Source: Sulfurovum sp. UBA12169 (GTDB lineage: Bacteria > Campylobacterota > Campylobacteria > Campylobacterales > Sulfurovaceae). Taken from it: a stretch of 64,000 bases of DNA. The stretch is taken from the NCBI GenBank assembly GCA_002742845.1, contig DLUH01000001.1:375291-439290 (forward strand). The letters are read 5' to 3'. The notes beneath the pieces were generated by a model, which was not told where the DNA came from, ran no database searches, and worked only from the letters and a program-made list of their open reading frames with translations. Position numbers and translations under genes: made by a program. This document shows positions 24,207 to 51,797 of the stretch, one piece after another; position 1 is the stretch's first letter; every line of letters starts with the position of its first letter.

Positions 24207-24223
24207 TGGCGGACAGTGAGGGA
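24207..24223. other. Left attachment site (att core)
   Basis: TGGCGGACAGTGAGGGA, identical to the 3' end of tRNA-Ser at 60877-60893; the flanking bases differ on both sides (24206 versus 60876, and 24224 versus 60894). It marks the left prophage end, 98 bases after rlpA. Confidence 0.9.
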
Positions 24224-24280
24224 ATATAACAATCAAAACAATCCCCTGTTTAACTGGATATATTTGAATTTATTTAAATT

Positions 24281-24301
24281 TTTAGCCACTTTTTTAGCCA
24301 C
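24281..24301. repeat. TTTAGCCAC direct repeats near the left end (integrase arm-site candidates)
   Basis: Two copies of TTTAGCCAC (24281-24289 and 24293-24301) in an AT-rich context. The same 9-mer occurs at 60752-60760 upstream of int, at the other end of the prophage. Such repeats in both arms are typical of tyrosine-integrase arm-binding sites. The role is inferred. Confidence 0.5.
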
Positions 24302-24353
24302 AAATTAATATATAAAAAAATTTACATATTTAAAAACAATCACAAAAATATAA

Positions 24354-24370
24354 TTACACACGGTGTGTAA
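24354..24370. promoter_or_regulatory. hicAB operator
   Basis: Perfect palindrome TTACACAC G GTGTGTAA, followed by a GTGTGTA half-site around 24389 and a TATAAT-like -10 just before hicA. HicB proteins with a ribbon-helix-helix tail bind such palindromes and repress their operon, so this is probably the autoregulatory operator. Confidence 0.65.
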
Positions 24371-24424
24371 GTATTTATTAAGTAAATAGTGTGTATAATG
24401 TGTATATATAAGGAGGTACGGCGG

Positions 24425-24610
24425 ATGGACGCAAAAGAAGTCCTAAAGATTCTTTTAAAAGAAGGCTTCAAAGAGGTTTCCCAAAAAGGTTCACACAAAA
24501 AACTCACAAAGGGTGAAAAAACGGTAATAGTTCCGGTGCACGGAACAAAAGATATACCGAAAGGGACCCTGAAGAGTATAGAAAAGCAAAGCGGAGTACC
24601 CCTCCGCTGA
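24425..24610 (+). CDS. hicA: HicA mRNA interferase toxin
   Basis: About 61 residues with the double-stranded-RNA-binding-like HicA fold: KEVLKILLKEGF, the conserved GSHKKL with the catalytic His near residue 23, and a C-terminal VPVHGTKDIPKGTLKSIEKQ. HicA cleaves mRNAs and tmRNA. The ATG at 24425 follows GGAGG with good spacing and gives the usual length. It is the first gene inside the left prophage end and is co-transcribed with hicB. Confidence 0.92.
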   Translation: MDAKEVLKILLKEGFKEVSQKGSHKKLTKGEKTVIVPVHGTKDIPKGTLKSIEKQSGVPLR

Positions 24611-24641
24611 TTGATACATCAAAAAAGTTAAAGGAAAAAAA

Positions 24642-25034
24642 ATGGAATATATTGCATTTATTCACAAAGAAGACGGAAACTATGTTGCAACTATCCCTGA
24701 TCTGAACTATACATCTAGCTTTGGAGAAACATTCAAAGACGTAGTACTGCATATTACCGAGGCTGCAGAACTGTATTGTGAAGATTTGGAAAAACTACCT
24801 GCCTGTCGAACACTTGAAGAGCTTGAAGCAGCTGGAATTAGAGAAGATGGGGCTATTCCTCAAATCATAAACCCAAAAGTAGAAAAGTTGAGACGTATAA
24901 ATATCACTATCTGCTCTTCTGCGCTAGACATAGGAGACCAAAGAGCGAAAGAGCTTTTTGGAGGTAACAGAAGTGCATATATCCAAAAACTTATTTTGAG
25001 AGATGCGGAAGAGTCGGGAGCGCTTCGTCATTAA
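24642..25034 (+). CDS. hicB: HicB antitoxin
   Basis: 130 residues. The N-terminal partial RNase H-like HicB domain (YIAFIHKEDGNYVATIPDL) neutralises HicA, and the C-terminal region near residues 85-125 (RINITICSSALD to SAYIQKLILRD) looks like a ribbon-helix-helix that would bind the upstream palindrome. It starts 31 bases after hicA. The pair probably stabilises the prophage or blocks other phages. Confidence 0.9.
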   Translation: MEYIAFIHKEDGNYVATIPDLNYTSSFGETFKDVVLHITEAAELYCEDLEKLPACRTLEELEAAGIREDGAIPQIINPKVEKLRRINITICSSALDIGDQRAKELFGGNRSAYIQKLILRDAEESGALRH

Positions 25035-25040
25035 AACGCA

Positions 25041-25268
25041 TTATTTGCATACCATATTCGCTGCTTCAAGCTGCATAATGTATGCGTCTTTCTTCGTGCA
25101 ATTTGACAAATGCTGTTTCATCCTTTCAGACCTACTTTGTTTTTCAGAATGATCATATAATGGTCGTGCAACAAAAGGTGTTCGGCAAGAAACAAACACC
25201 TTTTGGCCGCACCCGCTAATCGCCATACTTATCAAGAAAACGGAAAGCAGCATCACACTCTGTTTCAT
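25041..25268 (-). CDS. Rz1-like outer-membrane spanin lipoprotein
   Basis: About 75 residues with a lipobox ISGC (Cys about residue 20 from the start at 25268), so an outer-membrane lipoprotein. It begins inside the 3' end of the preceding membrane gene in another frame, which is the hallmark of overlapping Rz/Rz1 spanin pairs that fuse inner and outer membranes at lysis. The ATG at 25268 follows AAAGGGG. It is Cys-rich at the C-terminus. The call rests on architecture and position rather than on sequence identity. Confidence 0.6.
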   Translation of the reverse strand: MKQSVMLLSVFLISMAISGCGQKVFVSCRTPFVARPLYDHSEKQSRSERMKQHLSNCTKKDAYIMQLEAANMVCK

Positions 25269-25515
25269 TTGCACCCCTTTTAAGTTTTTCAATTTCATCT
25301 AGCTTGTGTACAAGAAATTTCCCTGTATCATCTATAGCGTTCTCGTAAACTTTAATGCTGCTGTCATATGCTCTTTTCTGCGATTCAGACCCAACCTTAA
25401 ATGTTATAATTTCTGCCTCATACTCGCCACATTTAATCCACATAAATATACCCATAGAGACAAGCATAATTGTGAGCGCCGCGATTATATAGTCTTTTAT
25501 GTTCAAGCTTAGCAT
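25216..25515 (-). CDS. Rz-like inner-membrane spanin
   Basis: About 99 residues with one N-terminal transmembrane helix (residues 8-27) and a long charged helical tail, as in i-spanins. The start at ATG 25515 overlaps the transglycosylase stop (TAATG) and follows GGAG; the frame extends upstream only through a GTG. It overlaps the Rz1-like gene by about 53 bases. Confidence 0.6.
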   Translation of the reverse strand: MLSLNIKDYIIAALTIMLVSMGIFMWIKCGEYEAEIITFKVGSESQKRAYDSSIKVYENAIDDTGKFLVHKLDEIEKLKRGANETECDAAFRFLDKYGD

Positions 25516-26123
25516 TACCACATCTCCCACGTTGTCGTTTTTTCTTTCATATCATGATAGATACTTATAGAAAATTTTTCTATCTTAACCGGGTACTCAT
25601 AGTTGATGTCACATGCGCTGCGCGTCTGGCCATTTTTGAATCTGATCGTTTTTCTTCGGCAGTACTTCTTTACGGTTGACTGCTCAAGCGACCCCCCGGA
25701 ACGCTCTATCTCCTTAAGCACAAGCCACCCGCCGTTATAAGCCTGAAACGGTATCCAAAGCTTTTTATTGCCGGCGGCATACGCCTTCTCAATCATCCTC
25801 TTCATAATCAGCACCTGCGCTTTTGTAAAGTTCGGTATCGTCTTGAGGTTGTATACGCCGTATGCTTTTAGATATCCGCTCCACCACTTCCACGTGATTT
25901 GCGCCGGGCTTTCACTCCCCACACCGTCATAAGATATGACAAACCGACAGTTTGACTCCTTGTGGACCTGCGCTACAAGATATACATACGGGAAATCATG
26001 TGCTATTAGCTCTGCACTGTACTTTTTAAGATAAGGAGCGTATGGCCGGCAGCTATCAGCTATAGCTTGTGTATGCAAAAACAAACATAACAAAACTGAC
26101 AAGAGCAAAAATCGTATTCGCAT
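25515..26123 (-). CDS. Phage lytic transglycosylase (SLT-like endolysin)
   Basis: A 202-residue secreted protein with a signal peptide (residues 1-22, ending AIA) and a lysozyme-like SLT domain: AQVHKESNCRF holds the likely catalytic Glu (near residue 55), followed by SPAQITWKWWSGYLKAYG and FQAYNGGW. It would cleave peptidoglycan glycan strands at lysis. Export by a signal peptide suggests a SAR- or Sec-type endolysin. The gene lies between a holin-like protein and the spanins. Confidence 0.8.
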   Translation of the reverse strand: MRIRFLLLSVLLCLFLHTQAIADSCRPYAPYLKKYSAELIAHDFPYVYLVAQVHKESNCRFVISYDGVGSESPAQITWKWWSGYLKAYGVYNLKTIPNFTKAQVLIMKRMIEKAYAAGNKKLWIPFQAYNGGWLVLKEIERSGGSLEQSTVKKYCRRKTIRFKNGQTRSACDINYEYPVKIEKFSISIYHDMKEKTTTWEMW

Positions 26124-26355
26124 TCATATCCTTCACGTTTACTGTCCAATCAACCGGGCCAACCCAGTACTGAATCGCTTTTCTAAATAAAAACCAATGA
26201 ACTATAGCCATACTCATTTTCATCGGTATTAATACCAGAAAGCTTAGAGGGTTGCTGTCTGCCATTGCGTTGCCAGTAAATATAAAATATGCCACTATGC
26301 CAAAAACAAAAACTGAGAAAACATCAACACTCAGCCTTACAATATTATTTTTCAT
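26056..26355 (-). CDS. Candidate holin or lysis membrane protein
   Basis: About 99 residues with three hydrophobic segments (about residues 10-30, 37-55 and 79-97) and little else. The position immediately upstream of the transglycosylase in the lysis cassette, the size and the membrane profile fit a holin. It overlaps the transglycosylase start by 68 bases. The start at 26355 follows GAGGAA. No family is recognised. Confidence 0.5.
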   Translation of the reverse strand: MKNNIVRLSVDVFSVFVFGIVAYFIFTGNAMADSNPLSFLVLIPMKMSMAIVHWFLFRKAIQYWVGPVDWTVNVKDMNANTIFALVSFVMFVFAYTSYS

Positions 26356-26668
26356 TTTTTCCTCTTTCAAAATATAATTTAACAACATGCTCTAAATTAT
26401 TGAACTTTTCAGTAATGAGGTCCCTAAGTCCATCATGCTTTTCGATAGACACGAATGTAACCTTCGCTTCATTCCACGACACTTTCCCTTCAATCATCTC
26501 TTTTATCTTTGTGAGCTCTTGACGGGTTTCATGCACCTCCCTCTTGATGACTTTTATGTCTTCATTCCCAGCGTCGGTACGGAACCGCGTATAAGCAACG
26601 TACATCACAACACCTACAAATACAGTTCCGATAGTTACCGCAAAAGTTATCAACCCCTGCAAGTTCAT
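26345..26668 (-). CDS. Membrane-anchored coiled-coil protein of the lysis region
   Basis: A 107-residue protein with one N-terminal transmembrane helix (residues 6-26) and a long charged coiled coil (about residues 40-100). A G-run just before the ATG at 26668 can act as SD. It resembles small hemolysin XhlA-like or holin-accessory proteins in architecture only. It overlaps the holin candidate by 11 bases, so the two are coupled. Confidence 0.5.
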   Translation of the reverse strand: MNLQGLITFAVTIGTVFVGVVMYVAYTRFRTDAGNEDIKVIKREVHETRQELTKIKEMIEGKVSWNEAKVTFVSIEKHDGLRDLITEKFNNLEHVVKLYFERGKNEK

Positions 26669-26678
26669 TCCCCCCCCC

Positions 26679-26837
26679 TTATTTTTCTTTAAAAAACTGT
26701 CTCTCTTGATGTTCGCCTTTTTTCCCGATGTTGAAACTCTCAACGGGCCTGTGATACCCCATCACTCTGGTGTAAACGATGCACTTTGTTCTTTTTTCCC
26801 TAAGTACGGGCGGCAAAGATTGTAATCCTTCTTTCAT
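26679..26837 (-). CDS. NrdD C-terminus-like small protein
   Basis: A 52-residue protein whose core CIVYTRVMGYHRPVESFN followed by GKKGEHQER matches the C-terminal tail of anaerobic ribonucleotide reductase NrdD (pattern RxxGYxRPVxxxNxGKKxExxxR). It lacks the glycyl-radical and the zinc cysteines of full-length NrdD, retaining one Cys. The ATG at 26837 overlaps the upstream gene stop as ATGA and has a GAGGT SD, so it is a real, separately translated gene. Short NrdD-tail-like proteins are seen in phages; their role is not known. Confidence 0.6.
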   Translation of the reverse strand: MKEGLQSLPPVLREKRTKCIVYTRVMGYHRPVESFNIGKKGEHQERQFFKEK

Positions 26838-27091
26838 CTTACCACCTCTTCTTTCGTAAATCCAAATCGTTCAATGACGGTTAGATCTTCGTAGTCTTCC
26901 AAGATAGGGGCAATATGCCCTTCGTCGCCTTCTTGCAGTTCCCAACTGTATTCATTGGGATATACGGCGATGTCTCGCTGTTTTGCTATTGTGCCGGCAA
27001 GCAGCTCTCTAAAAATTTGTTTGTCCGTGTAAATCAGCGCCTCATAATCCTCTCTCGTTCGTACTTTTTCTACAGAAAATTCACCTCGCAT
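26834..27091 (-). CDS. Hypothetical protein in the DGR-lysis operon
   Basis: An 85-residue acidic soluble protein with no signal or membrane segment. It begins inside the last codons of the reverse transcriptase gene and ends in an ATGA overlap with the NrdD-like peptide. No family is recognised. Its position directly after the DGR reverse transcriptase suggests co-expression, though it is more likely a tail or lysis gene than a DGR component. Confidence 0.5.
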   Translation of the reverse strand: MRGEFSVEKVRTREDYEALIYTDKQIFRELLAGTIAKQRDIAVYPNEYSWELQEGDEGHIAPILEDYEDLTVIERFGFTKEEVVR

Positions 27092-28079
27092 ATAAAACCT
27101 CCTTTTTGATGTAATTTTTTAGGTTAAAACTATCCGCGCTTCTTATGTGTCCGCCCCAAGACGCAAGGAATAGCTTTAGCTTTTTTATGTCATTTTTTCG
27201 CTTGTAAAGCTTTATTTTTCGCTTTGCACGCACCACACTGTCTTTTCTTATTAGCTTGTATCTTGCTGTTATCCGGTAGCCCAAAAAGTTTAATGGCCGT
27301 GATATTGGACTGATATACCACTTGCTAAATTTTAAGCGCATAAAAATACGAGAAAACAGAGACAATGCTCTTTTAAACCTATAAAGCCCTTGTTTATCAT
27401 GTGATAAGATCACCGTATCGTCCATATACCGAAAATAGTACTTTGCCTTAAGTCTTGTTTTTATAAACCTGTCAAATATATGACCATATATGTTTGCAAA
27501 CAATTGACTAAGAAGGTTTCCTATGGGGATACCAACTCCTTTCTCATCACCAAAAAGCTTTAGAAGTTCCAACGCCCTTTTGTCTGTTATCTTCTTTTGT
27601 ATCTCACTAAACAGTATGCCTCTGTCGATAGAGTGAAAATACTTACTGAAGTCCATCTTCAGGTAATACACTGTGCCATTTTGTTCAAGCTTCCTAATTG
27701 TCGATTGTACTGCCCTGACGCCTCTATGGGTTCCACGACCTGGTCTGCACGCATAGCTATGCGGATAAAACATCTTCTCAAAAATAGGCTGAAGAATATT
27801 ATTAACCGCATGCTGCACAATCCTATCCCTAAACGGCAGAGAGCTGATCATTCGCTCTTTTGGTTCATATACTTTGAATGTGTGATATGGTCCGTGCATA
27901 TAGCTACCGCTAATGATTTTCTGTTGAAGCAAGTACAGATTCGCTTCTAGGTTCTCTTTAAAGGCAAGGTGGGATGCCGTATATCTATTTCCGCCCCTCA
28001 CTGCTTTTATGTAAGCATTTCTAAGATTGTCTATATCAACGATCTCGCTGAAAAGGTTTCTATATTTGCGTCCCACCAA
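27081..28079 (-). CDS. DGR reverse transcriptase
   Basis: A 332-residue group II-like reverse transcriptase. Domain A has KMDFSKYFHSID with catalytic Asp near residue 143. The motif IPIGNLLSQ near residue 184 is the DGR-type variant of the QG motif, and YMDD lies near residues 218-221. RTs of this clade copy the template repeat into cDNA with errors at adenines. The frame opens with TTG at 28079 or GTG at 28076, directly after a preceding stop, with AAAGGA as SD. It lies downstream of the variable gene, avd and template repeat on the same strand. Retron or CRISPR-associated RTs are excluded by the TR/VR pair. Confidence 0.93.
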   Translation of the reverse strand: MVGRKYRNLFSEIVDIDNLRNAYIKAVRGGNRYTASHLAFKENLEANLYLLQQKIISGSYMHGPYHTFKVYEPKERMISSLPFRDRIVQHAVNNILQPIFEKMFYPHSYACRPGRGTHRGVRAVQSTIRKLEQNGTVYYLKMDFSKYFHSIDRGILFSEIQKKITDKRALELLKLFGDEKGVGIPIGNLLSQLFANIYGHIFDRFIKTRLKAKYYFRYMDDTVILSHDKQGLYRFKRALSLFSRIFMRLKFSKWYISPISRPLNFLGYRITARYKLIRKDSVVRAKRKIKLYKRKNDIKKLKLFLASWGGHIRSADSFNLKNYIKKEVLYAR

Positions 28080-28240
28080 CTATCCTTTGTATGCTGTATG
28101 TTGTTTTCGCGATCGCGCTACTCCCACAGTGACAGACCTCTTAATGTATTTGCTTACGCTGGACAAACAAGCTGACCATAATTTAATGGCCGCACCACAT
28201 AACCCTTGAGTTACATGAGTGCAAAGTTTGTTTATATGCT

Positions 28241-28357
28241 CACAGGCGAAACGGGAGCCAATGTTCCAATCAGAATTCCAAACATAGTTGTTCCAATTCG
28301 ACGTGCGCGAGCCGGCGTTGACGCCATTGTCGCGGTTGCCCCCAAGTTTCACGGTTT
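28241..28357 (-). repeat. DGR template repeat (TR)
   Basis: 117 bases that align without gaps to the variable repeat at 28738-28854. The first 20 plus-strand bases are identical and hold no coding-strand adenine. On the coding strand the TR is rich in AAC codons at the positions that vary. Of 27 coding-strand adenines, 17 differ in the VR; only one other position differs (28321). The TR lies between avd and the reverse transcriptase gene, as in other DGRs. Confidence 0.92.
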
Positions 28358-28360
28358 GTC

Positions 28361-28696
28361 TCATTTGCCCTTCATCCAACTATGTAAAATTTTTCCAACC
28401 TCGGCAAGTCTTATCGAAGCTACCTGGTGTTGTTTTTGAGTGATCAACTTACGATTTTTGTCTGCCAAAAACCGCAAATAGTATCTCAAGCTTGCCAGAT
28501 TTGCATCTGCTTCATACAGACGGCTTTTCTGGTTTGATTTTAATGCTTTATAAAACATTTCAACCTGCTCAAAAATAAGATTGATCACTCTTTCTTTTAC
28601 TACCCCGTGTTTCCGTTGGATATTTTGAAGCACGGGGTATATATAGTTCACAAACTCATCGTATTTTTCTATTATGATAAGTTGCTCTTCATTCAT
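28361..28696 (-). CDS. avd: Avd-like DGR accessory variability determinant
   Basis: A 111-residue, almost entirely helical basic protein, rich in Tyr, Gln and Lys, matching Avd-type four-helix bundles in size, position and composition (YDEFVNYIYPVLQNIQRKHG, then LASLRYYLRFLADKNRKL). Avd forms a pentamer that binds the RT and template RNA and is needed for retrohoming. The stop lies four bases from the TR boundary. The start has a weak SD and is 22 bases after the VR gene stop, so translation may be coupled to the receptor-binding gene. Confidence 0.82.
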   Translation of the reverse strand: MNEEQLIIIEKYDEFVNYIYPVLQNIQRKHGVVKERVINLIFEQVEMFYKALKSNQKSRLYEADANLASLRYYLRFLADKNRKLITQKQHQVASIRLAEVGKILHSWMKGK

Positions 28697-28717
28697 ATCG
28701 TCGTTCGCTTTCGCTCA

Positions 28718-29782
28718 CTAAGCAAGTTTCACGTGGTCACAGGCGAAACGGGAGCCAACGCTCCAATCAGAATACCAAACATAGCTGTCCCAATCCGACG
28801 CGCGCGAGCCGGCGTGGCCGCCAGCGCCGCGGGCGCCCCCAAGTGACACGGCTGTAATATGATTTGCATGTGTGGCATATATTTGTCCTCTGTTTTCTGC
28901 TACGTTTTGCCAAGCCCAGGTCGTCGATCCTTCGTCTCTGTTTCCAGCAACATCTTTTCCCCATATATATTGTGTGCCGGCTGCTTGTTCGATACCGTAT
29001 TTAGACGTCAAAAATCCGTAATGTTCTACCCTTGCAAGTCCGCCGTCAACTGCACTGGAACTGGCTCCTTCTTGTACGCCATAAGCAATCGCCATAAACT
29101 CTGCATATGAGATAAGCTCTTTTGCGTGTGCTGCGGCGATCTCATTTGCATGAAACCATTTGAACCCAGCATATACCGTATCGCCGTTGCCACCATATTG
29201 AAGCGGCACTTTGGGTATGGCTCTTCCATAGGTAGTAGCCCCGCCTGCAATAGTAGCGCTGGCTTTTGACGTACCATTGACGATGTGGTCGCTATTTAGC
29301 AGATATATGTCGTACCATCTGCCCGCTATATACACCATCCCTTCTGGGTTGGCAGCAGGATGCCATTTTAGGTCCCACAAGCTATATGCGTTTATGCCCC
29401 TTATTTTCACCATATCTGCTTCTGTTTTGTTCCCGGTCGGCGCCTCATCCTCCAAAGTAAGGCCGTAGTGAAAACCTCCAATCTTTCTGCTGTTTTCAGC
29501 GGTATATCCGGAAGGGTAGCTGTTGTTTGCACTTAGCACAAACCCGCCTGTCGTGAGGGCATATATATAGTAGTCCGTACCTGCAGTTTTTGCCCCGGTA
29601 TCAAGATTAACATCAAGGTCGAGTACATAGTCGCTCGCAAGCCTTATTATTTTGCCTCCAACGTTCACAACTGTTCCAGTAGGAACAGATACGCTGTGCG
29701 GCGTAAGCTTCGCTAGGAGTGGTGCGTTTGTGTTTTGTTTGTAGAAGTCTTGTTTTGTATCATTTTTAAAACCAAATTCCAT
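28718..29782 (-). CDS. DGR target: tail-fibre/receptor-binding protein with C-type lectin-like variable tail
   Basis: A 354-residue protein. The N-terminal part (about residues 1-170) is beta-rich like a tail-fibre trunk. The C-terminal part has the formylglycine/C-type-lectin-like fold used by DGR-variable proteins (WGKDVAGNRDEGSTTWAW, then the VR). The final GSRFACDH region matches the conserved end of such domains. The ATG at 29782 follows AGGAGG; the longer frame overlaps the previous gene. Diversification at the C-terminus would alter receptor specificity, as in the mtd protein of phage BPP-1. The target cell surface ligand is unknown. Confidence 0.85.
   Translation of the reverse strand: MEFGFKNDTKQDFYKQNTNAPLLAKLTPHSVSVPTGTVVNVGGKIIRLASDYVLDLDVNLDTGAKTAGTDYYIYALTTGGFVLSANNSYPSGYTAENSRKIGGFHYGLTLEDEAPTGNKTEADMVKIRGINAYSLWDLKWHPAANPEGMVYIAGRWYDIYLLNSDHIVNGTSKASATIAGGATTYGRAIPKVPLQYGGNGDTVYAGFKWFHANEIAAAHAKELISYAEFMAIAYGVQEGASSSAVDGGLARVEHYGFLTSKYGIEQAAGTQYIWGKDVAGNRDEGSTTWAWQNVAENRGQIYATHANHITAVSLGGARGAGGHAGSRASDWDSYVWYSDWSVGSRFACDHVKLA
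28738..28854 (-). repeat. DGR variable repeat (VR) at the 3' end of the receptor-binding gene
   Basis: Aligned to the TR at 28241-28357 with 18 differences in 117 bases, 17 of them at coding-strand adenines of the TR. In the protein, 12 or 13 residues vary, mostly where the TR has Asn: GGNRDNGVNAGSR becomes GGARGAGGHAGSR, and SNWNNYVWNSDWNIGSRFAC becomes SDWDSYVWYSDWSVGSRFAC. The VR ends within the last codons before the stop at 28718. Confidence 0.92.
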
Positions 29783-29783
29783 A

Positions 29784-30017
29784 CTACACCTCCTGGTTGA
29801 CGAATACATCAACTGAAGTAAATCCGACAGATCGAGCCCAAAGTTTCTGCCCTGTTGTCCCATTCATTTGATTCCGAGGTGACAAAACCATCCCCCCTCC
29901 AGTTGGTTGAATATCTGCAAACAGATACTCAACTTCTTGTTCGGCATATGCAAACCCTTCGCCGTCAAGTATTAATGTGTACGTTGTGTCGTGAATTTGT
30001 ATTTTTGATGTTGCCAT
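29784..30017 (-). CDS. Small phage protein next to the DGR target
   Basis: A 77-residue beta-rich protein (MATSKIQIHDTTYTLILDGE near the start), with SD GGAG at the ATG 30017. It ends two bases before the start of the variable receptor-binding gene and may be a fibre-baseplate connector. No family is recognised. Confidence 0.45.
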   Translation of the reverse strand: MATSKIQIHDTTYTLILDGEGFAYAEQEVEYLFADIQPTGGGMVLSPRNQMNGTTGQKLWARSVGFTSVDVFVNQEV

Positions 30018-30037
30018 TTTTTTCTCCTTTTTTAGAT

Positions 30038-30475
30038 TTATAACAATATTGATATATTCGGCATAACCCAATTGACTGTTGCATCTCTTAACGATTGCCT
30101 CAGTTTACGTAATTCTGTTGTATCTTCGCCACGGTCTTCTGCTTTAAAAATAGCAATATCACATTCTTTTAGATGCCCATCCCTTTTAGCCCTGAATGCA
30201 GCTTGCTCAGATGTGATTTTTTCTTCCAAAGTAAAGTCAATTACCTCAAATGTTTTGATTACTGTTTTTGTATCATCGTCAAGAACTGTTTTCGATTCTC
30301 CGAGCCTTTGATATTGAGATAAAGCAGGTACTTCATTTATTTCTCCATACCAACCCATAGCTTGGTATTCTTCATCAGACATTCTCTTTCCATAAGATAC
30401 ATTATTATATGTACCACCTCTTCTAATCGTTGCTACGATTTGTCCATTTTCTACTTTATGAAATTCGTAAAACAT
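30038..30475 (-). CDS. Tail-fibre-assembly-like protein
   Basis: A 145-residue soluble protein, aromatic at the N-terminus (MFYEFHKVENGQIV) and helical and charged at the C-terminus. It resembles phage tail-fibre assembly or DUF4376-type proteins by composition and position between the fibre genes. The ATG at 30475 is chosen; the upstream ATG at 30499 lies within the preceding gene. Confidence 0.45.
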   Translation of the reverse strand: MFYEFHKVENGQIVATIRRGGTYNNVSYGKRMSDEEYQAMGWYGEINEVPALSQYQRLGESKTVLDDDTKTVIKTFEVIDFTLEEKITSEQAAFRAKRDGHLKECDIAIFKAEDRGEDTTELRKLRQSLRDATVNWVMPNISILL

Positions 30476-30483
30476 TATTTTCC

Positions 30484-31143
30484 TTAATTTGATTCCCACG
30501 ATATTGACATTGCTACTGAATATGAGTATTCGTCAACTGTTACTATTATGGTCCTCGGTGTTTCGTCTACCGTGATTAAGCTACTGCCGCAAACAAACAT
30601 CCCACTACCTGTATAATCCGGCGTAAGTCCGCTGATGCTTATTGAGCCTGTGCTGTTATCATAGCCCACCGCAGTTACGAAACCTCCTTTTTTGGCATTT
30701 AAAGAAAGATTCAAATTGGTTGCATATTCTGCCGACTTTGTTGCATACGGGGTAGAGCTTAGATTATCTACCGTCCATACTCCGATTGCACATCTAACCA
30801 TTGTACCAGACCACGCTATTACAATATCCGCTGTCGTACCAGTTGGAACTTCAAACAAATAAAAATACACACCTGAAAGATACCCACCCGTTGTGTTTAA
30901 TTCATACCCGATTAGTGTACCGCTTATGCCGCCAACTGTAACTGACGATATTGTTCTTGACGATGACGACGCTCTAGCCGCTATGCCGACTATTATTTTT
31001 CTTGTACTTCTTGCTTCTCCTATCGAAACAGCACTGAAAGTGTATGTTGTCAATCCCGACCCATTATAATTTCCGGAAAAATTTAAAACTTCAATTTCAG
31101 ATTTTCCAAATTGTACACCTCTTAATCGTTCAGCTAAAATCAT
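30484..31143 (-). CDS. Tail-associated beta-rich protein
   Basis: A 219-residue protein rich in Ser, Thr and Gly with beta-strand character, typical of phage tail-tip or fibre shaft domains. The ATG at 31143 overlaps the stop of the upstream gene (ATGA). No catalytic motif is seen. Its position between two fibre-like genes supports a tail role. Confidence 0.45.
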   Translation of the reverse strand: MILAERLRGVQFGKSEIEVLNFSGNYNGSGLTTYTFSAVSIGEARSTRKIIVGIAARASSSSRTISSVTVGGISGTLIGYELNTTGGYLSGVYFYLFEVPTGTTADIVIAWSGTMVRCAIGVWTVDNLSSTPYATKSAEYATNLNLSLNAKKGGFVTAVGYDNSTGSISISGLTPDYTGSGMFVCGSSLITVDETPRTIIVTVDEYSYSVAMSISWESN

Positions 31144-31796
31144 TCGTAGCTCCCTAAGTACGCGGCAAATAATGATGTACTTACTTTCCACAGCACAATA
31201 GTATCAAGCCCAGTCCAAGTTGGAGCAACATTACCAGATGTTGTACACCATGTTAGAGTTGGTAAGGTTAGCGTATAGAGGTCTGCATCTTTTATCATTA
31301 AGGTAATGCTTTGACCGCTCTCTAAGACTTCAGTTAATGTTGCACTTGCAGTAAGTTCTCTAAATTGTATCGTACCGTTGGCTGGATTTATTTCCGTTCC
31401 AGTCATTGCGTAATACGTTTCTTTTGTTTCTTTAACCGTCAATTGGGCTGTCATGGTTTGAGCTACGTTTGTTTTCATTAAATAACTATTTGCTGGCTCC
31501 TTTCCAGTAAGTGCATCCTCTAGCCCTGCAATGTTTGAAATTCCGAGAGTGTCGAGCGTTGTTTTATTGATTTTAATAAAATTGACGATTTCTTGAAGTT
31601 CATCGAGGCTTGTATCGTTACTTGTTAACAGAATGTTTATCTCATCGATGAATCCTTTTATGACTTGACCTTGTTTTGCAGATAAGAATTTTGTTGCATC
31701 ACTGGTTTCTAGATTGTCTGATATGTCTTCTTTTACAATGTCTTTGATAGTTAACTTATCTTCACCTGTCAATACTTCTGTGAGGTTCCTAGGCAT
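31140..31796 (-). CDS. Tail-fibre-like protein
   Basis: A 218-residue acidic protein with a helical N-terminal third and a beta-rich C-terminus (LTLPTLTWCTTSGNVAPTWT). Composition and neighbours point to a tail fibre or a carbohydrate-binding spike component. It overlaps both neighbours by a few bases. No named family is recognised. Confidence 0.45.
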   Translation of the reverse strand: MPRNLTEVLTGEDKLTIKDIVKEDISDNLETSDATKFLSAKQGQVIKGFIDEINILLTSNDTSLDELQEIVNFIKINKTTLDTLGISNIAGLEDALTGKEPANSYLMKTNVAQTMTAQLTVKETKETYYAMTGTEINPANGTIQFRELTASATLTEVLESGQSITLMIKDADLYTLTLPTLTWCTTSGNVAPTWTGLDTIVLWKVSTSLFAAYLGSYE

Positions 31797-32262
31797 AAAT
31801 TATCTCCTTGTACGATATAAGGTTGCTTGTCGCAACGATCTTGTCATCAACGATGATGAAGTCCCCGCTGTCTGAAGTGATAAAGTCTCCGTTGTCGTCG
31901 ATGATATAGTCCATAGTCCCAAGTATCTTTATATTTATTTTGCACTCCCAGAATCCTTTTTCTTTTTTCGGCGAAAAATCGCCATTAAACTTTACAAGAA
32001 CGTTTGGGTATTCTTCTCCCATATTGTTGTTGTATGTTTCAATATTTATGAGAAATGGATCTAGCCCATACGTGCATAGTGTTTCCCAAAAAAAGTCAAG
32101 TGCTTGGATTTTTGCAAACTCATTCGTTATTACGTTGAAAGATGCAGGTATTTCCCCCTCTGTCAATGCCCTGCCGCCCTGCCCTTTTACGGCAGGGAAT
32201 TTGGTATAATTGAACGGATATATTACACAAGGAAGAGCATCGTTCCATCGTGGTATTGTCAT
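31789..32262 (-). CDS. Hypothetical tail-tip protein
   Basis: A 157-residue protein with hydrophobic and acidic segments and no membrane helix. A short repeated IIDDNGDFI/TSDSGDFIIVDD motif occurs near residue 120. It overlaps the large upstream gene by four bases. It is most likely a tail-tip component of the baseplate-to-fibre region. Confidence 0.4.
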   Translation of the reverse strand: MTIPRWNDALPCVIYPFNYTKFPAVKGQGGRALTEGEIPASFNVITNEFAKIQALDFFWETLCTYGLDPFLINIETYNNNMGEEYPNVLVKFNGDFSPKKEKGFWECKINIKILGTMDYIIDDNGDFITSDSGDFIIVDDKIVATSNLISYKEIIYA

Positions 32263-34193
32263 ACTATCTCCTCAATGCTAAATGAATATTGTGAAATTCT
32301 TTCAATATCATTGTCTTTAACTGTCGTACCTGTTCCTATAGACATAAACCTTCCTATGATCTTTGTTGTATCAAAGATTGATGACCCATTCGCATTTTTA
32401 TTGCTGCTGTCCGAACCATCGATTATCACCGTTTTTTTATTTAAGTACTGCAAAAATCTTACAGTGTCATCATAATTTAAAGTTCTTATATACACAGTTC
32501 CGCTATTTACCAATACAGTCGGCCTTTCTATATATGACGGGTTCCCGAAAATATCCTGCTCGAATGTACTCCAGTCTTTCAGTGAGTGCTTCATCTCAAG
32601 ATGCGTTATCCCTGCATCTACCGCTTTCGCAAGCGCGAGTGTCCCAACCTGCGTATAGCTTCCAAAAAGCTGTATATCAGCACTGTATGCCGTTGCCTCC
32701 GCATAGAAAATTTCTGTCTTTGGTGAGACAATATCGGTGTTAAGAAGCGTACAGTCGATAGATTTTTGTATAGTTTTTATGATATTCCCGAGATTGTCTT
32801 TAAAGTCTATCTGCAATAAGTCGCATACTATTTTCCCAAGGCCTATCGATGTAAACCCTCCTGCAGCATATAAAGAATAAAACATGTTCCCATTTTTGCT
32901 TGCAAAACTATAATTCTTGTTGTCAAACGGCCTATAGATATTTGATTTTTCAATGGGCGTGAAGCCAATCGCTTCAGGCGAGTCAACTTGCACGAATATC
33001 TTTTGTGTTTCTGTAACATATTCTATTCCGGCATCGATATTTGTTCTTGCATAAACACCGTCGTCACGTACTATAATCGTAGAAAAACATTCTGCATACG
33101 TTGGATAATTTTCGTTCCATATAACATTCGCTTTAGTCTCTACTGTGTTAGGCGTAATACGTGTAATTACGTCAACTCCATTGAGTGTCATTATGGTTTC
33201 TTGAGTATTCACCTCTGTGTAATACACAATCACCTGGATAGAATCAACATAGATATTGTCGTCATTAACATCTTTCTTCTGGAATCCTACGCCGAAAGTT
33301 GAGCTCTTTAAAGCAGTCGGTGAAATTTCGTTCCAGCCCCATAAGTCGCTATTGCCACCGTATATCTTTGTCGAAATGGTCATGGCAGTACCTGTTGAAG
33401 ATTTTGCTGTTCCTTTCCCGATGCTGCCTTGATAGAGTTGCACTTTTTTATCGTCTGGCGCACCGCCGCTTGCATACTGTCTTATTTGTACCTCTATTCC
33501 GGTTATGATCGCTGAATCAGGAATCTCGCTAAAATCATACCCAGACGAGATCATTGTATTTGTATACGAGCTGTCGCCGCCAAAGCCGCTATATGATTTC
33601 GTTACATATGCCGTATCAAGTGAAAGTATATTGTTTGGGTTGACCCAAGCGGCGCCGTATCCGTCATTCAGTGTTGTTACGGCAGATGGATTTTTTACGC
33701 TGGTCGCTTGCATATCGCCTCTGCTACGCAGAAGTGTTGTTTTAGATTCCCATACTAACGGATCACCGGTCCTATAGATTGAGTACTTCATCGTATCCTC
33801 ACCAAGGTCGGCCTCAAAATTGTATGATGTGTCAGGGAAGCCTGCCCATACCCCGCCGAGTTTGACATATCTGTTTGACCATGTAGAATTATCGATGGAT
33901 GTATCAAATGCGGCATAAACTTCAGGCTGGGCAGGCACTACAGCACCATCTCCCGACTCAAGAGCAACGATTAAATTATCTTTATAGACAACATCACCTA
34001 CATTGTATGCTTCGTATTCATTATATACAGGGACAGCAATACTCTCACCTGACAGGTTCTGAAATATGTCGCTCCCATACAGCAGTTTCATGTTTTTTTG
34101 ATATGTTGCCCTTATTGTCGGGTCAAATACCTCCGTCTCATCCGTCGCATTTGTGTATGCCAGCTGCTGTGCTACAGGTATGGATATTGTCAT
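32259..34193 (-). CDS. Large tail-tip (host specificity-like) protein
   Basis: A 644-residue protein after the tape measure. The first 150 residues carry a Tyr/Asp/Ser-rich domain and there is a later domain with GVDVITRITPNTVETKAN. In lambda-like phages this position holds tail-tip genes (M, L, K, I, J), so a tip or hub role is likely. The stop overlaps its downstream neighbour. No single family is certain. Confidence 0.5.
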   Translation of the reverse strand: MTISIPVAQQLAYTNATDETEVFDPTIRATYQKNMKLLYGSDIFQNLSGESIAVPVYNEYEAYNVGDVVYKDNLIVALESGDGAVVPAQPEVYAAFDTSIDNSTWSNRYVKLGGVWAGFPDTSYNFEADLGEDTMKYSIYRTGDPLVWESKTTLLRSRGDMQATSVKNPSAVTTLNDGYGAAWVNPNNILSLDTAYVTKSYSGFGGDSSYTNTMISSGYDFSEIPDSAIITGIEVQIRQYASGGAPDDKKVQLYQGSIGKGTAKSSTGTAMTISTKIYGGNSDLWGWNEISPTALKSSTFGVGFQKKDVNDDNIYVDSIQVIVYYTEVNTQETIMTLNGVDVITRITPNTVETKANVIWNENYPTYAECFSTIIVRDDGVYARTNIDAGIEYVTETQKIFVQVDSPEAIGFTPIEKSNIYRPFDNKNYSFASKNGNMFYSLYAAGGFTSIGLGKIVCDLLQIDFKDNLGNIIKTIQKSIDCTLLNTDIVSPKTEIFYAEATAYSADIQLFGSYTQVGTLALAKAVDAGITHLEMKHSLKDWSTFEQDIFGNPSYIERPTVLVNSGTVYIRTLNYDDTVRFLQYLNKKTVIIDGSDSSNKNANGSSIFDTTKIIGRFMSIGTGTTVKDNDIERISQYSFSIEEIV

Positions 34194-37100
34194 ACCGCTT
34201 TCCTTGTTGTTTCTTCAAGCTCCTGAACCCTCAGCGCAACCATGTCAACCGCCTTAACAACGTCGCTCAATGTTGCATCTGCATTTTGTTTTTTTAGCTC
34301 ATTGATATAATTATTGAATGCAGGGATATACTCTTCTTTTGACGTTGCTGTCTTCATGGCTGTTTCTGCCGCCATTCTGGCTGCATCCGCTGCGTTCAAC
34401 GCTCCATTGGACTGTCTTGCTATCTCAAAATAGCCGCTTGCATAATCAGCTTTTTGGGACAACGATAGATAGCTCAAGTCACTTAGCCATGCGTCAGCGA
34501 TCTCTCCCATCATGCCTGACACCGCTTCCTGCAGGCTTTCTGCTGCGTTTGACATTTGTGCAAATCCGTCAGAAAGCAACAGTATCTGCCCGTACAAGTA
34601 TGCGCTCTCTTCCGTTGAAGTGTCCATTGTCTCCAGAAGGCTTCTGAATTCATCCCTTGTTTTCGGCATTGTTATCCCAAGCGTTGCGAACGATGCTTCC
34701 ATAGACTTTGTCATAAAGTTAAGCTGCTCTTCTTCCGTATAGAAGTTCGTCATAAATGACGACATCGCATCCTGGAAAGAAGTAAGCCCACCGGCACTCT
34801 CAACGATATCAAGGATCTGCATTTGCGCAGTGTAGAGTGCGTCATAAGTCTCTGAAAAATAAAGCGTTAGCTCTTCTGTCTTGCCCCAAATCCCTGAGAA
34901 TATATTGGAGAATGAAGACGTATAACCTGCGCTGGTTATCCATGGCAGGTTTGCAAAATCATCGTTCACATGAATCATCGTTTCGGACCATGTTTTAGTA
35001 ACAGACATAACCCCGTCCTGGAATGTTTTTCCTATCAACCCAAACGAAAATGACGCCTGTTCATACTCTGTCGCTATCCTGATCAGCGTTTCCAGAGAAT
35101 ATTCCGCATCTTTTGCATATCTTTCCGTCAGCGATGCAAACTCTTCTATGTCATCTACGACACCGCTTAACGCTGTGCTAAATACCTGGCTCAATCTGTC
35201 GGAAACTTCGCTTGGGCTGAGCCCGGTAAAGTCTACTTTGCCTATATCAACGTTTGAATTAAACAGAAGATTCTCCAGGTTGACCTTGTCCAGTCCAAGA
35301 GAAATGCCGGCGGTCATGATCGCCTCATAGCCGTCCGTAAACGCAGATGCGATGTCGTCAATTACGGATGCCGGTAGGTCTTTGTACGTCTCCCTGATCT
35401 TTGTACTGTTTGACAATCCAAAGAACGATGATTTTTGAACAAGTGTTGTTGTATATGATCTGACGTTCAATGTTGCTTCATCCATAAGCTCACTGAGGGT
35501 TTGAAGCTCAAATTTAAGGCCTGTACCGATAAGAGATACTGATTTTGAACTAAAACCAAGGAATCCGACTTTCTGAGTGCCAACAAAGTTCGCACCTGTT
35601 AGATCGATCCCGCCAGCTGAAGCCTGAAGGCTAAATGCACGAGCGATTGAGTAAAAGTTCGCATCCATGTTCCTGATGTGCTTGAACATTTTGTTCGTCA
35701 CTTCAAGCATCGGATATTGGGCGTTTTCAAATACATCCCCCAAATTTTTGAGCGAATTATCGTCAAACTCTACACGCCCCTTTGATGCATCTATCTCTTC
35801 TTGCGTCACAGTTGACGACAATAGGCCACCGATCACTTGGAGAGTTGCAGATATCCAGTCACCGGTGGAAAGGGAACCGAATGCATCGCCGATTCCTTTG
35901 CCGCTAAAAATGTTTGTTGCCGCTTTTCCGAGTGCATCACTTACATTTCTTGTGCCGGTGTCTATGATCTGATTGAACGCGCCGGCAAAGTCTCCGTGCA
36001 GCATTGATTCAAAGATGCCTGAGAACATCGATGACATCGCTTCTGTCGCACGCTGTGCCTCTTTCTCTATCTCAGATACTGTATCTTTTGTCTTGCTTTC
36101 TATTTTTTTCATTTCGGCAGCATAGATGTCAGCCAACTGTGCCTGTGACAGATATTTGCCAAGCCCCGCAAGCTTGTCCCCCAGCTGTTTGATCTCGTAC
36201 CCTTCGTCACCGAGCACGGCTTTGAGCCATTCATCCTGCGCTTTGGCGGCTTCTTTAGCTGCCTTTGCTGCATCTGACGCGGCTTTTTTCTCTGCGTCGC
36301 CTGCTTTTGTAGCCTGCTGTGTAAGGTCTCCGTACGCTGCCCCGTGGTCTTCTAGGTATTTACGTGCTTTTTCTCTCTCTTTTTTTGCTATTTCTTCATC
36401 ATTTGTTGCCGCCGCTTTTTTATACTCTTTATTTATTTTTTTTACCAACTCGAGTGCTTTTTTATGCCCAGCGCCCTCTTCAAGATCCTTAAAGTTTTTT
36501 TTGTACTCATCACGTGCTTCGCTTGCATATTGCCATGCAGTAGCTACATTTGAGACCGGAACTCCCATAGAGATAATATCTGCCTTTGTTTTCTCAAAAG
36601 ATACATGATCGATTTTGCCGAAAATTTTACCTACTCCTGGGATTTTCGCCGCCGCGGAATTTAATGACGAAGAAAGTGAGTTTATCTTGTCGATTATCCA
36701 GTTGATCATCCCCGCAAACATATCTTTGACGCCGTTTGCCACATCTGCCCACAATTGAGACATCTTGTTGCCAAGCTTGTTCCAAACTTCCTGAATTGTA
36801 TTGATGCCTGTGCCTATTACGCCTACCAATTGCCAAAAAGCGACTTTTAAATAATCCCATACCCCGCCGAACAAAGAAAATGCATCAGATAACACACCGG
36901 CACCCTCGATCATGCTGTTTATGCCGCTTACAACAGAATCTACAAAACCTTTCGCACTCCCTTTGCCGCTATTAAAAGCATCCTTAGTAAAATTTGAAAC
37001 ATTGCTCACGACCGAAGTAAGATATTTGAAAAGCCCTTCATCAGCTATAGCAAGCTCAATATCCGTCCACTTGTTCTTTATGCCTTGAATCGTGCCGGCC

Positions 37101-37777
37101 CATGTGTTCTTGTATTTCTCAGCCTGCCCTGCATATTTTTCGGTAAAGATAGCGGACAGAGTAGAGTCGATGATCTCTTTGTTGTTGTCTATGATTATGT
37201 TGCGCGCCCGACCCATGCTGTCAGTCCATCCGTAGGCCACTTTCTGCCCTTGCACAGAAGCTTTAGTCCCAAACTCTTTGAGTCTCTCGTTTTCGCCTTG
37301 CAGCGCGTCTGCCATCGCTTCTGCAAACTGTTCGATGCTTTTCCCTGATCCAATCGCGGTATTGACATAGGTCTTTAACTGCTCATTGCTGTCCTTTAGT
37401 CCGTAGTTCTTCATCAGAAGAAGTGTCTCTGTAGTCTTTTCTATCGACTGATTGTAGTCCATTGCAAACTTACGCGCCCTTGCCATTTCGCTCTGTTGCT
37501 CTGTGAGCGAAGAAGTAAAAGCGCCCATCCGGTTTCCGTACTGCTCAAACTGTGATGCCGTATCAAAAAAAGATGCAACGGATGATTTTACAATGTCGAT
37601 CGCTTTATCTGCGACATACAGCCCACCGGTGAACTTCATGATGAAGTTTTTGAGATCATTTACACCCGTCTTTGCTTGATTGACAGCCTTATCAAACTTC
37701 AGTACTTCGTCGGATACCTGCGTCACCTTGCCGGTCTGCGCATCTACTTTGAGCGTAAGTTTAAGTTCCTTTCCCAC
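34190..37777 (-). CDS. Tail tape measure protein
   Basis: About 1195 residues, mostly alpha-helical with hydrophobic central helices and Ala/Lys-rich coiled regions. It fits a tape measure, which sets tail length and helps eject DNA. The usual order (tail tube, G/GT chaperones, tape measure) is seen here. I prefer GTG at 37777, since GGAGG lies six bases upstream; TTG at 37783 sits directly on the SD. The 3' end overlaps the tail-tip gene by four bases. Confidence 0.9.
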   Translation of the reverse strand: MGKELKLTLKVDAQTGKVTQVSDEVLKFDKAVNQAKTGVNDLKNFIMKFTGGLYVADKAIDIVKSSVASFFDTASQFEQYGNRMGAFTSSLTEQQSEMARARKFAMDYNQSIEKTTETLLLMKNYGLKDSNEQLKTYVNTAIGSGKSIEQFAEAMADALQGENERLKEFGTKASVQGQKVAYGWTDSMGRARNIIIDNNKEIIDSTLSAIFTEKYAGQAEKYKNTWAGTIQGIKNKWTDIELAIADEGLFKYLTSVVSNVSNFTKDAFNSGKGSAKGFVDSVVSGINSMIEGAGVLSDAFSLFGGVWDYLKVAFWQLVGVIGTGINTIQEVWNKLGNKMSQLWADVANGVKDMFAGMINWIIDKINSLSSSLNSAAAKIPGVGKIFGKIDHVSFEKTKADIISMGVPVSNVATAWQYASEARDEYKKNFKDLEEGAGHKKALELVKKINKEYKKAAATNDEEIAKKEREKARKYLEDHGAAYGDLTQQATKAGDAEKKAASDAAKAAKEAAKAQDEWLKAVLGDEGYEIKQLGDKLAGLGKYLSQAQLADIYAAEMKKIESKTKDTVSEIEKEAQRATEAMSSMFSGIFESMLHGDFAGAFNQIIDTGTRNVSDALGKAATNIFSGKGIGDAFGSLSTGDWISATLQVIGGLLSSTVTQEEIDASKGRVEFDDNSLKNLGDVFENAQYPMLEVTNKMFKHIRNMDANFYSIARAFSLQASAGGIDLTGANFVGTQKVGFLGFSSKSVSLIGTGLKFELQTLSELMDEATLNVRSYTTTLVQKSSFFGLSNSTKIRETYKDLPASVIDDIASAFTDGYEAIMTAGISLGLDKVNLENLLFNSNVDIGKVDFTGLSPSEVSDRLSQVFSTALSGVVDDIEEFASLTERYAKDAEYSLETLIRIATEYEQASFSFGLIGKTFQDGVMSVTKTWSETMIHVNDDFANLPWITSAGYTSSFSNIFSGIWGKTEELTLYFSETYDALYTAQMQILDIVESAGGLTSFQDAMSSFMTNFYTEEEQLNFMTKSMEASFATLGITMPKTRDEFRSLLETMDTSTEESAYLYGQILLLSDGFAQMSNAAESLQEAVSGMMGEIADAWLSDLSYLSLSQKADYASGYFEIARQSNGALNAADAARMAAETAMKTATSKEEYIPAFNNYINELKKQNADATLSDVVKAVDMVALRVQELEETTRKAV

Positions 37778-38344
37778 TGTCAACCTCCATTTGTATATGT
37801 TTTGCCATTTCTAGCGTATCCACCCTGTCAAGGTCATACTTATCGCAGTATGCAAATACAGTATGAGGGTCTATATACACGCTGCTAAAACCTGCGATAC
37901 GCGACATAGACCATATCCTAATCATCATCTTTTCCCAGTCATCTTCAAGAAAGACTGTATCCGGATGGCGCTTTAGGACGAACTCTTTTTCGCTTTCATC
38001 GGGAGCGCCGTATTTTGATGCCTGCTTTGCATAGGCAACGATCCTGTCTATTTTCTCTTTTTTGCGTTTCCCACCGCTTCATCCAGCTGGCCTTTGACAT
38101 CATAGGCATTCCCTGATGTCTCAAGCTCTGACAACATACGCTCGATGCTTGATTCTTCACCGCGGAGGTTCTCTTTTAAAGTCTGTTTACTGAACTTCAC
38201 TGATTCCGAAGCACCTTTTTCCACAGCTGCGATACCCGTATCTATCTGTTCAGTTGTCGGCTCGAGATATGAAAGCTGCGCAGAGCTCCCGTCTGCATAT
38301 TCCCATTCAAACTTAACTTCTGTTCTTTTGGCTTTTAGTTTCAT
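37761..38344 (-). CDS. GT tail-assembly chaperone by predicted -1 frameshift
   Basis: The G frame (38344 to 38048) runs into a second frame of about 98 codons that ends at 37761 with no good start of its own and a coding-like sequence (GKRKKEKIDRIVAYAKQ and following). In the shared region GGGAAAC (38066-38072) and AAAAAAG (38057-38063) lie in frame as X XXY YYZ heptamers. A -1 slip on either gives a fusion of about 192 residues, as for gpGT of lambda. Predicted from sequence; not shown experimentally. Confidence 0.8.
38048..38344 (-). CDS. Tail-assembly chaperone G-like protein
   Basis: A 98-residue acidic protein between the tail tube and tape measure genes, the position of gpG in lambda. 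It likely binds the tape measure protein during tail assembly. It ends with VGNAKKRK, the region carrying both slippery heptamers. Confidence 0.75.
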   Translation of the reverse strand: MKLKAKRTEVKFEWEYADGSSAQLSYLEPTTEQIDTGIAAVEKGASESVKFSKQTLKENLRGEESSIERMLSELETSGNAYDVKGQLDEAVGNAKKRK

Positions 38345-38410
38345 TTTTTGTCCTTTTGATTTTTTGTCCTTTTTGCTCAGAGGCGGGAGAAGGACGAACC
38401 CGCCACATCA

Positions 38411-39352
38411 TCAGTCGAATATGACGATCTGGATGTTGTCATCACCGTTTGTAGGCAAACATGCAAAACTTCTTGTTGCTTTAAACCTGCCTTGATCGCT
38501 GTTTTTGTCGGTATCGTTTGCTACTGCTTTTGGTATACGGATCTCTCCGCGTTTTGTACCGTCTATCTCAAATAACCCAAGAATGATGTTTTTTTCACCC
38601 TGTGTTTGAAGCTCATCCCATGATATCTCATTCTCTTCGGTAAGAGATTGCGTGAGCTTCAGTGTCGGTGCGTATTCCTCGCAGTATGCACCGGATGGGC
38701 AGCTGGTATCTGCATGTACCATAGATGCGCCCCAGTCAATTTCGAAACTTTCGATATGCCCCCCTACGCCGTTTATTGTATACCCGGTACAGTCTTCAAG
38801 CATGTATAGGAATGCAGGGATATCAACCGTAGGTACTGCATTGTCCGGAGCAGTATTGACAAGCAATGTCTCGCCTTGATATTTGAAGCTATATGCAAAT
38901 GTCATCTCTACAGGCTTGTTTATCTCGCATTTGATAGAGAGCCCGCCTTTACCCCCCTTTCCGCTCACAGTAGCACGAGGGTCTATCCAGTCTATTGAGA
39001 GCGTGTCAGTTTTTGCTGTTTTCATCTCATAGCTCACGCCCGCTGGGGACACCAATGCCGTCCCGGCAAAATTACATGTTTCAAGCAATACAGAATATGC
39101 TGCTTTATCTGCCGCCATCTTCTGAGTTATGGTATATGATATCTTGCCGGTTCCTGGAGCTACGATATCACGCTTTGTCCCACTAGTCGAAGACATAGGG
39201 TCTACCGTTATTTTTCCAAACTCCACTTTAGACATGTCTGTGCCTCTTTCAAGGTACAGTGCAGTTGTCGGAAGCACATATGCCCCAGGTGTAACTTCTT
39301 TTGCAACCTTGATCCCCATGAGGGCTTGTGTAAATCTACTTCCTGGCATCAT
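38411..39352 (-). CDS. Major tail tube protein
   Basis: A 313-residue protein, largely beta-structured, similar in order and length to siphovirus tail tube proteins (lambda gpV-like), with a C-terminal region that could be an Ig-like or accessory domain. It lies upstream of the G/GT chaperones and downstream of the head-to-tail genes. Cysteines cluster around YMLEDCTGYTING. It would form the hexamer stack of the tail shaft. Confidence 0.7.
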   Translation of the reverse strand: MMPGSRFTQALMGIKVAKEVTPGAYVLPTTALYLERGTDMSKVEFGKITVDPMSSTSGTKRDIVAPGTGKISYTITQKMAADKAAYSVLLETCNFAGTALVSPAGVSYEMKTAKTDTLSIDWIDPRATVSGKGGKGGLSIKCEINKPVEMTFAYSFKYQGETLLVNTAPDNAVPTVDIPAFLYMLEDCTGYTINGVGGHIESFEIDWGASMVHADTSCPSGAYCEEYAPTLKLTQSLTEENEISWDELQTQGEKNIILGLFEIDGTKRGEIRIPKAVANDTDKNSDQGRFKATRSFACLPTNGDDNIQIVIFD

Positions 39353-39495
39353 TGTTCCTTATCTTCTGTTTTTTTAGGCTTTACATTTGTATAGCCTTTG
39401 CCGATGTAGTTTTTTTCGTGTGACTTAGGCACACTCATCGGTTTACCTGTAGCCTCGTTATACACGACGACTGTATCATTTGCCTTATCCGCCAT
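39349..39495 (-). CDS. Short hypothetical phage protein
   Basis: A 48-residue basic protein (MADKANDTVVVYNEATGKPM start). The stop forms an ATGA overlap with the tail tube gene start, and GAGGT precedes the ATG. The overlap and SD make it likely to be translated. No function is known. Confidence 0.5.
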   Translation of the reverse strand: MADKANDTVVVYNEATGKPMSVPKSHEKNYIGKGYTNVKPKKTEDKEQ

Positions 39496-39496
39496 T

Positions 39497-39817
39497 TTAT
39501 ACCTCACAATTTTTCATCATGTCTACAGTAAAGAGAAGCAAAATAAAATCAAGCTTGTCTCTACCGCCCCAGTCCATTTTCGTGCCGTCAAAAGACACGC
39601 CGTTTGTTGCGTCCATTGTTATTGATTTTAGCCCGACGATAAGATTGTCGCTTATCAGCTCATGGCTATCTTCAACCCTTGCTAAAACCTTCGCATATTC
39701 ATCCAGACCCTCTATCTCATGAGCAATGATTTTGACTTCATAAACAACTATCTTAGGCTCAAGTGTTTTGATCTTGTCCGTGATGAAGTCAAGCACTTTC
39801 TGATGCGTAGTTCTCAT
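39497..39817 (-). CDS. Tail terminator-like protein
   Basis: A 106-residue soluble alpha/beta protein between the head-tail connector genes and the tail tube, the place of gpU/tail terminator. The ATG at 39817 shares a base with the stop of the preceding gene (TGATG). It resembles U-like proteins in size, but no diagnostic motif is seen. Confidence 0.45.
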   Translation of the reverse strand: MRTTHQKVLDFITDKIKTLEPKIVVYEVKIIAHEIEGLDEYAKVLARVEDSHELISDNLIVGLKSITMDATNGVSFDGTKMDWGGRDKLDFILLLFTVDMMKNCEV

Positions 39818-40089
39818 CAAACAACCTTTAGAACAATGATCTGCTCTTCATCCACGCTCCCATAAGGGATAGGTCTTTTTGCAACCTCATAGACTTTTGC
39901 CTCTGTAGTGATTATCTCGCCGTGTCTGAATTCATAGGTTGAAAGCGTACGTGCTGCCATGAACCCAGACTCTTCTATGCCTTCTATGCTTGCATCAAAC
40001 ATAAAAAAGACCGTAGACCCGTCTTCCTTATTGGCCTTGATGCCTACTTCTGCATAAATTGCAGCAAGATCGTCAAGAAGAGGCTTCAT
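39817..40089 (-). CDS. Head-tail connector-like protein
   Basis: A 90-residue protein, beta-rich after a short helical start (MKPLLDDLAAIYAEVG). Size and position fit a small head-completion or FII-like connector. It overlaps the preceding gene by 17 bases. No named motif is present. Confidence 0.4.
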   Translation of the reverse strand: MKPLLDDLAAIYAEVGIKANKEDGSTVFFMFDASIEGIEESGFMAARTLSTYEFRHGEIITTEAKVYEVAKRPIPYGSVDEEQIIVLKVV

Positions 40090-40540: not shown

Positions 40541-40541
40541 G

Positions 40542-41588: not shown

Positions 41589-41591
41589 GGA

Positions 41592-42430: not shown

Positions 42431-42449
42431 ACCTGTTTCTCCTTTTTTT

Positions 42450-45030: not shown

Positions 45031-45167
45031 TTTCGCTCCATAATGTTTATTTTAAAGCATTATGTCGGTTTTGATTTTTTTAAAACAGACATGTTTTTCT
45101 GTCTTGCGAAAAAGTTAAGTTTTATGATATACTAAAGGTTTTTGTAAAAAACTTTACTTCGGTAAAC

Positions 45168-45383: not shown

Positions 45384-45387
45384 GTAT

Positions 45388-49573: not shown

Positions 49574-49582
49574 GTTTTACCT

Positions 49583-51697: not shown

Positions 51698-51698
51698 G

Positions 51699-51786: not shown

Positions 51787-51797
51787 TTAAAGATAAA

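Follow-up and report, generated by a model that had tools for sequence, protein, structure and literature searches.

Genes and features at the locus

The DNA analyzed (the window) is a 64,000-nucleotide stretch of contig DLUH01000001.1 from Sulfurovum sp. UBA12169. The site of interest is almost certainly the variable repeat (VR) of a complete diversity-generating retroelement (DGR) of the BPP-1 type, carried by a siphovirus-like prophage. Its parts are listed below by window position.

24207..60893, no strand: prophage carrying the DGR, 36.7 kb, with a 17-bp att direct repeat (TGGCGGACAGTGAGGGA) at 24207-24223 and 60877-60893, in tRNA-Ser; integrase at 59549-60721
26834..27091, minus strand: 85-aa ORF overlapping the 3' end of the reverse transcriptase gene, in the place of bbp4 of BPP-1 by position alone; without a family match
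27081..28079, minus strand: DGR reverse transcriptase (RT), 332 aa, with GIPIGNLLSQ and YMDD (RVT_1 E 3e-21; PHROG 1423 E 2e-112; 46% identity to BPP-1 Brt)
28093..28221, minus strand: DGR RNA element 3' of the template repeat, Rfam RF03022 Phage_DGR (72.8 bits; gathering score 50)
28237..28354, minus strand: template repeat (TR), forming a repeat pair with the VR
28361..28696, minus strand: avd (accessory variability determinant), 111 aa (Pfam bAvd E 2e-39; 47% identity to BPP-1 Avd over 106 aa)
28703..28718, minus strand: target-site hairpin GTGAGC[GAAA]GCGAAC with tandem G.A mismatches; its first base is the last base of the mtd stop codon
28718..29863, minus strand: Mtd-like, predicted receptor-binding tail protein, 381 aa, the DGR target gene (Pfam mtd_2nd E 8e-36; PDB Mtd E 8.5e-50; PHROG 11262 tail protein E 1e-83)
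28734..28748, minus strand: IMH-like 3' end of the VR, CGCCTGTGACCAC (TR counterpart CGCCTGTGAGCAT), with a CAT-to-CAC change as in BPP-1 (GTCTGTGACCAC / GTCTGTGCCCAT)
28734..28851, minus strand: VR, codons 338-377 of the target gene

The order mtd-avd-TR-RNA-RT on the minus strand is that of Bordetella phage BPP-1 (AY029185), and the RT adjoining the repeats is of the DGR type, with SQ in motif 4. The two systems share the target family, a target length of 381 aa, RT and Avd proteins at 46% and 47% identity, an RNA that matches the Rfam phage DGR family, and the CAT/CAC distinction between IMH* and IMH (GAG CAT in the window TR, GAC CAC in the VR). Unlike that of BPP-1, the window IMH has no 14-bp run of G and C only, and the host and phage are different ones. 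The prophage, whose tail genes end with this cassette, also has genes for integrase, portal, terminase, capsid and tape measure and shows no obvious decay. With the repeat pair, avd, the Phage_DGR RNA and the RT all present, the adenine-templated diversification proposed in the sequence-only reading is supported. Searches for further VRs found none in the whole genome, where the TR sequence is present at the TR and VR only.

An ORF at 28080-28379 (minus strand, 99 aa) is open through the TR and spacer, and an internal ATG overlaps the avd stop (ATGA). It was considered as a protein gene and dropped, since a TR has to remain open in any case and the stretch downstream of it is the RF03022 RNA; the open frame is probably a by-product of this need.

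Adenine-directed differences between TR and VR

The direct repeats at 28237-28354 and 28734-28851 are 118 nt long, 86% identical and spaced 497 bp apart. Read on the minus strand they differ at 17 positions, 15 of which are TR adenines (A>G 9, A>C 4, A>T 2), a bias with p = 1.2e-8 given 26 adenines in 118 TR bases. The two remaining mismatches are a T>G in codon 349 (V349G) and a G>C at the 3' edge (codon 376). The repeat had originally been placed at 28738-28854; it is real, with the VR at 28734-28851, and 28738 is at the IMH boundary, the site of the G>C difference. Two 118-nt repeats this much alike could in principle be an ordinary diverged duplication of the gene end that arose with no directed mutagenesis. 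However, the mismatches are adenine-specific and one-directional, one of the repeats is outside mtd, between avd and the RT gene, and RT, Avd and DGR RNA adjoin them. A plain duplication is therefore refuted by the adenine bias and the adjoining machinery, and we give it practically no chance.

At the protein level, the changes from TR to VR are N344A, D346G, N347A, N350H, T355A, N357D, N359D, N360S, N364Y, N368S and I369V, with T338A and K340S (AAA to TCA) further upstream. All eight TR Asn codons (five AAC, three AAT) are changed. Residues kept in the VR are Gly342/343/348/352/370, Trp358/363/367, Ser353/356/365/371 and Arg345/354/372, so that the unchanged Trp, Ser and Gly scaffold described in the sequence-only reading holds codon by codon. 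Its account of the variable sites needs amendment: Asn does stand at eight of them, but residue 346 derives from GAC (Asp) and V349G from the T>G change, and the codons it called AAC-type are AAT in three of eight cases. By calculation, AAY codons can reach 15 amino acids under adenine mutation with zero stops, in line with the wide choice without stops claimed for them, which is textbook knowledge (PMC6328139, PMC12875486). AAY is the commonest TR codon, yielding 14 other amino acids and no stop (PMC6328139). The AAA at codon 340 can reach 20 amino acids and gives stops in 3 of 64 outcomes, so the template is not wholly stop-proof. A 2026 study reported that AAC has an error profile distinct from that of AAT and that stops from AAA/AAG are under-produced (PMC12875486). 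Unlike the TR of BPP-1, which is nearly all AAC, the window TR combines five AAC and three AAT Asn codons with GAC, GAT, ACG, TAT and AAA.

VR variation among relatives

No second copy of the window mtd gene or prophage was matched in 150 related genomes besides its own. Relatives with identical TRs were found among fetched viral contigs, and their VRs differ nearly only at TR adenines: 15/15 differences for L054/L138, 6/6 for L138/L142, 8/8 for L060/L073, 15/15 for L108/L109 and 19/20 for L050/L056. Since these relatives carry different VRs over the same TR, the finding that would have counted against the sequence-only reading, VRs identical in all related prophages, does not hold.

The window T>G at 28818 (codon 349, Val to Gly) is the sole non-adenine change inside the VR. 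Across 143 TR/VR pairs from fetched loci, the non-A mismatches inside the mutated stretch were T>G 23, T>C 6, C>T 6, G>T 4, G>C 3, C>G 2 and T>A 1, each counted once per unique sequence context, some of which related phages may still share. T>G leads these classes, making up 23 of the 45 unique internal events and 23 of the 30 changes at T (p = 1.5e-6 versus equal thirds, 0.002 versus T>C). Ordinary drift would favor transitions. In direction, T>G corresponds to dC opposite a template U, just as the dominant A>G corresponds to dC opposite A. The excess suggests that the loose fidelity of the RT may extend, weakly, to template U via dC misinsertion. A published survey, in contrast, reported cytosine as the main replacement for thymine (PMC6642488), so the excess needs an independent check.

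Fold of the target protein

An AlphaFold2 model of the target protein, built from 55 sequences (pLDDT 87.9), matched five Mtd crystal structures with Foldseek E values of 3e-33 to 2e-35. Alignment with VIA-align gave Z 41 and, for the best-fitting rows, an rmsd of 1.8-2.2 Å over 314-319 residues. Together with the sequence match to Mtd (E 8.5e-50), this bears out the earlier proposal of a lectin-like scaffold. The domains found are the Mtd second domain and a C-terminal C-type-lectin VR domain. The next structural matches, Treponema TvpA (Z 15.9) and Thermus TaqVP (Z 12.4), share the C-type-lectin/FGE-type fold and the C-terminal VR; unlike the window protein, they are single-domain and lack the Mtd second domain (PMC6328139). 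Separately, LR745707 and LR745708, named Escherichia phage T7, have a gene 17 tail fibre with an Mtd-like stretch (∼38% identical), perhaps engineered.

The TR adenine codons share residue numbers with 11 of the 12 of BPP-1 Mtd (344, 346, 347, 350, 357, 359, 360, 364, 366, 368 and 369). In solved DGR proteins with this type of lectin fold (CLec), the variable residues face the solvent and make up the ligand site (PMC6328139). Because of the residue-for-residue agreement with Mtd, the variable residues of the window protein are likely to be exposed at the surface as well. Receptor binding by these residues, like the identity of the receptor, is a matter on which we infer rather than observe.

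The Asn-rich pattern might alternatively reflect conserved lectin sequence instead of selection for mutability, and the CLec scaffold does constrain the surrounding Trp, Gly, Ser and Arg residues. This explanation is very improbable, however: Asn is present in the TR and absent at the same sites in the VR, the TR lies outside mtd, and the positions match the Mtd ones.

A target hairpin with tandem G.A mismatches

BPP-1 requires a hairpin downstream of its VR whose stem is GC-rich and whose loop is GRNA; phage examples have 7-10-bp stems, and 8-10 bp is optimal in BPP-1 (PMC3240598). The window hairpin is 16 nt long and consists of two pairs, a tandem G.A/A.G mismatch, two more pairs and a GAAA loop. 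It agrees with the published form in the loop, which is GAAA in BPP-1 too, and in its position (∼20 nt past the IMH), but its stem is of a covarying tandem-G.A form, with just four Watson-Crick pairs in place of a continuous Watson-Crick stem. One could take this as a sign of decay, with the VR recording past diversification and homing lost as the hairpin lost its stem. Only 2 + 2 Watson-Crick pairs flank the mismatch, and a nearest-neighbor DNA energy model gives a folding energy of just -0.8 kcal/mol, versus -11.4 for BPP-1.

To select hairpins by their invariant letters only (GA..GNNA..GA), the first 45 nt after each VR were searched. The pattern had 31 distinct matches in 113 post-VR tails, 27 of them with all four flanking pairs (G.T counted). 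Elsewhere in the loci, the four pairs were complete in 23 of 979 matches, and when tails were shuffled, the fully paired form arose at a rate of 3e-5 per tail. Each of the four pairs was changed on both sides in a set of 27 distinct hairpins, with 28 such cells versus 7.1 in shuffles, and sliding the register destroyed the pairing. This covariation set was chosen with pairing in view (at least three of four Watson-Crick pairs), so the count of 31 matches, 27 of them fully paired, is the less biased test. Both arms read Y-GA-R in 28 of the 31 matches, the context in which tandem G.A pairs of DNA are sheared. Placing the two stem forms, tandem-G.A and continuous, on an RT tree of 56 elements takes five changes; the forms therefore appear to interchange. 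The tandem-G.A hairpin with covarying flanks also occurs at L118-L136, L041-L068, L005, L007, L024 and L026.

These observations make decay of the window element unlikely. The NNGANN-GNNA-NNGANN form is found in 27 distinct sequences, always at this place, with every flanking pair kept by compensatory changes. Relatives with the tandem-G.A hairpin (for example L054/L138) have acquired new VR differences while their TR stayed the same, and the RT, Avd and RNA of the window are intact. The window copy may be active. We lean, by a little, towards a second class of DGR target hairpin, NN-GA-NN [GNNA] NN-GA-NN, in which tandem sheared G.A pairs in the Y-GA-R context would replace Watson-Crick pairs, covarying and interchanging with the continuous stem along the RT tree. 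A limited literature search found no description of this form, which is no proof of novelty.

Probable collapsed DGRs in the same genome

The genome has two further DGR-type RTs, at C5:748359 (locus L306, 874-aa ORF) and C1:83698 (locus L307, 795-aa ORF). Each shares a single reading frame with a probable target protein and a single repeat:

L306:3731-6355 (G000 C5:746730-749354): fused target-repeat-RT ORF
L307:4325-6712 (G000 C1:82324-84711): fused target-repeat-RT ORF

A second repeat and Avd were looked for at both loci, and neither was found. The relatives G089 and G122 have VR, avd, TR and RT, with the RT frame open through the TR. Compared with the G089 TR, the L306 repeat differs mostly in its 5' half, the 3' half being TR-like, as expected after a VR x TR recombination that deletes avd. 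L306 and L307 are probably DGRs collapsed by such recombination, or else the fusions are a collapse of the assembly.

Discussion

By the mechanism that we propose, RT and Avd would reverse-transcribe the TR portion of the TR-DGR RNA, making many errors at its adenines. The mutated cDNA would then take the place of the VR at the 3' end of the mtd-like gene, with the IMH and the DNA hairpin just past the stop codon guiding its homing. The TR would put Asn (AAY) at ligand-facing positions of the C-type-lectin fold; because of this coding, each homing event could re-draw those residues without stops, AAA codon 340 excepted, and the phage could therefore try new receptors and track changing hosts. 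Since the Asn-codon logic is already established, the biology of the cassette is known and the window adds one more example. That example is a complete, apparently intact Mtd-type DGR, and its mixed AAC/AAT/GAC/ACG template is useful for comparison with the BPP-1 error map.

How cDNA is integrated in DGRs is not understood (PMC12875486). If the tandem-G.A and continuous-stem hairpins do interchange, the homing machinery would recognize a shape common to both, and the covarying tandem-G.A hairpin may thus offer a testable rule for target recognition by that machinery.
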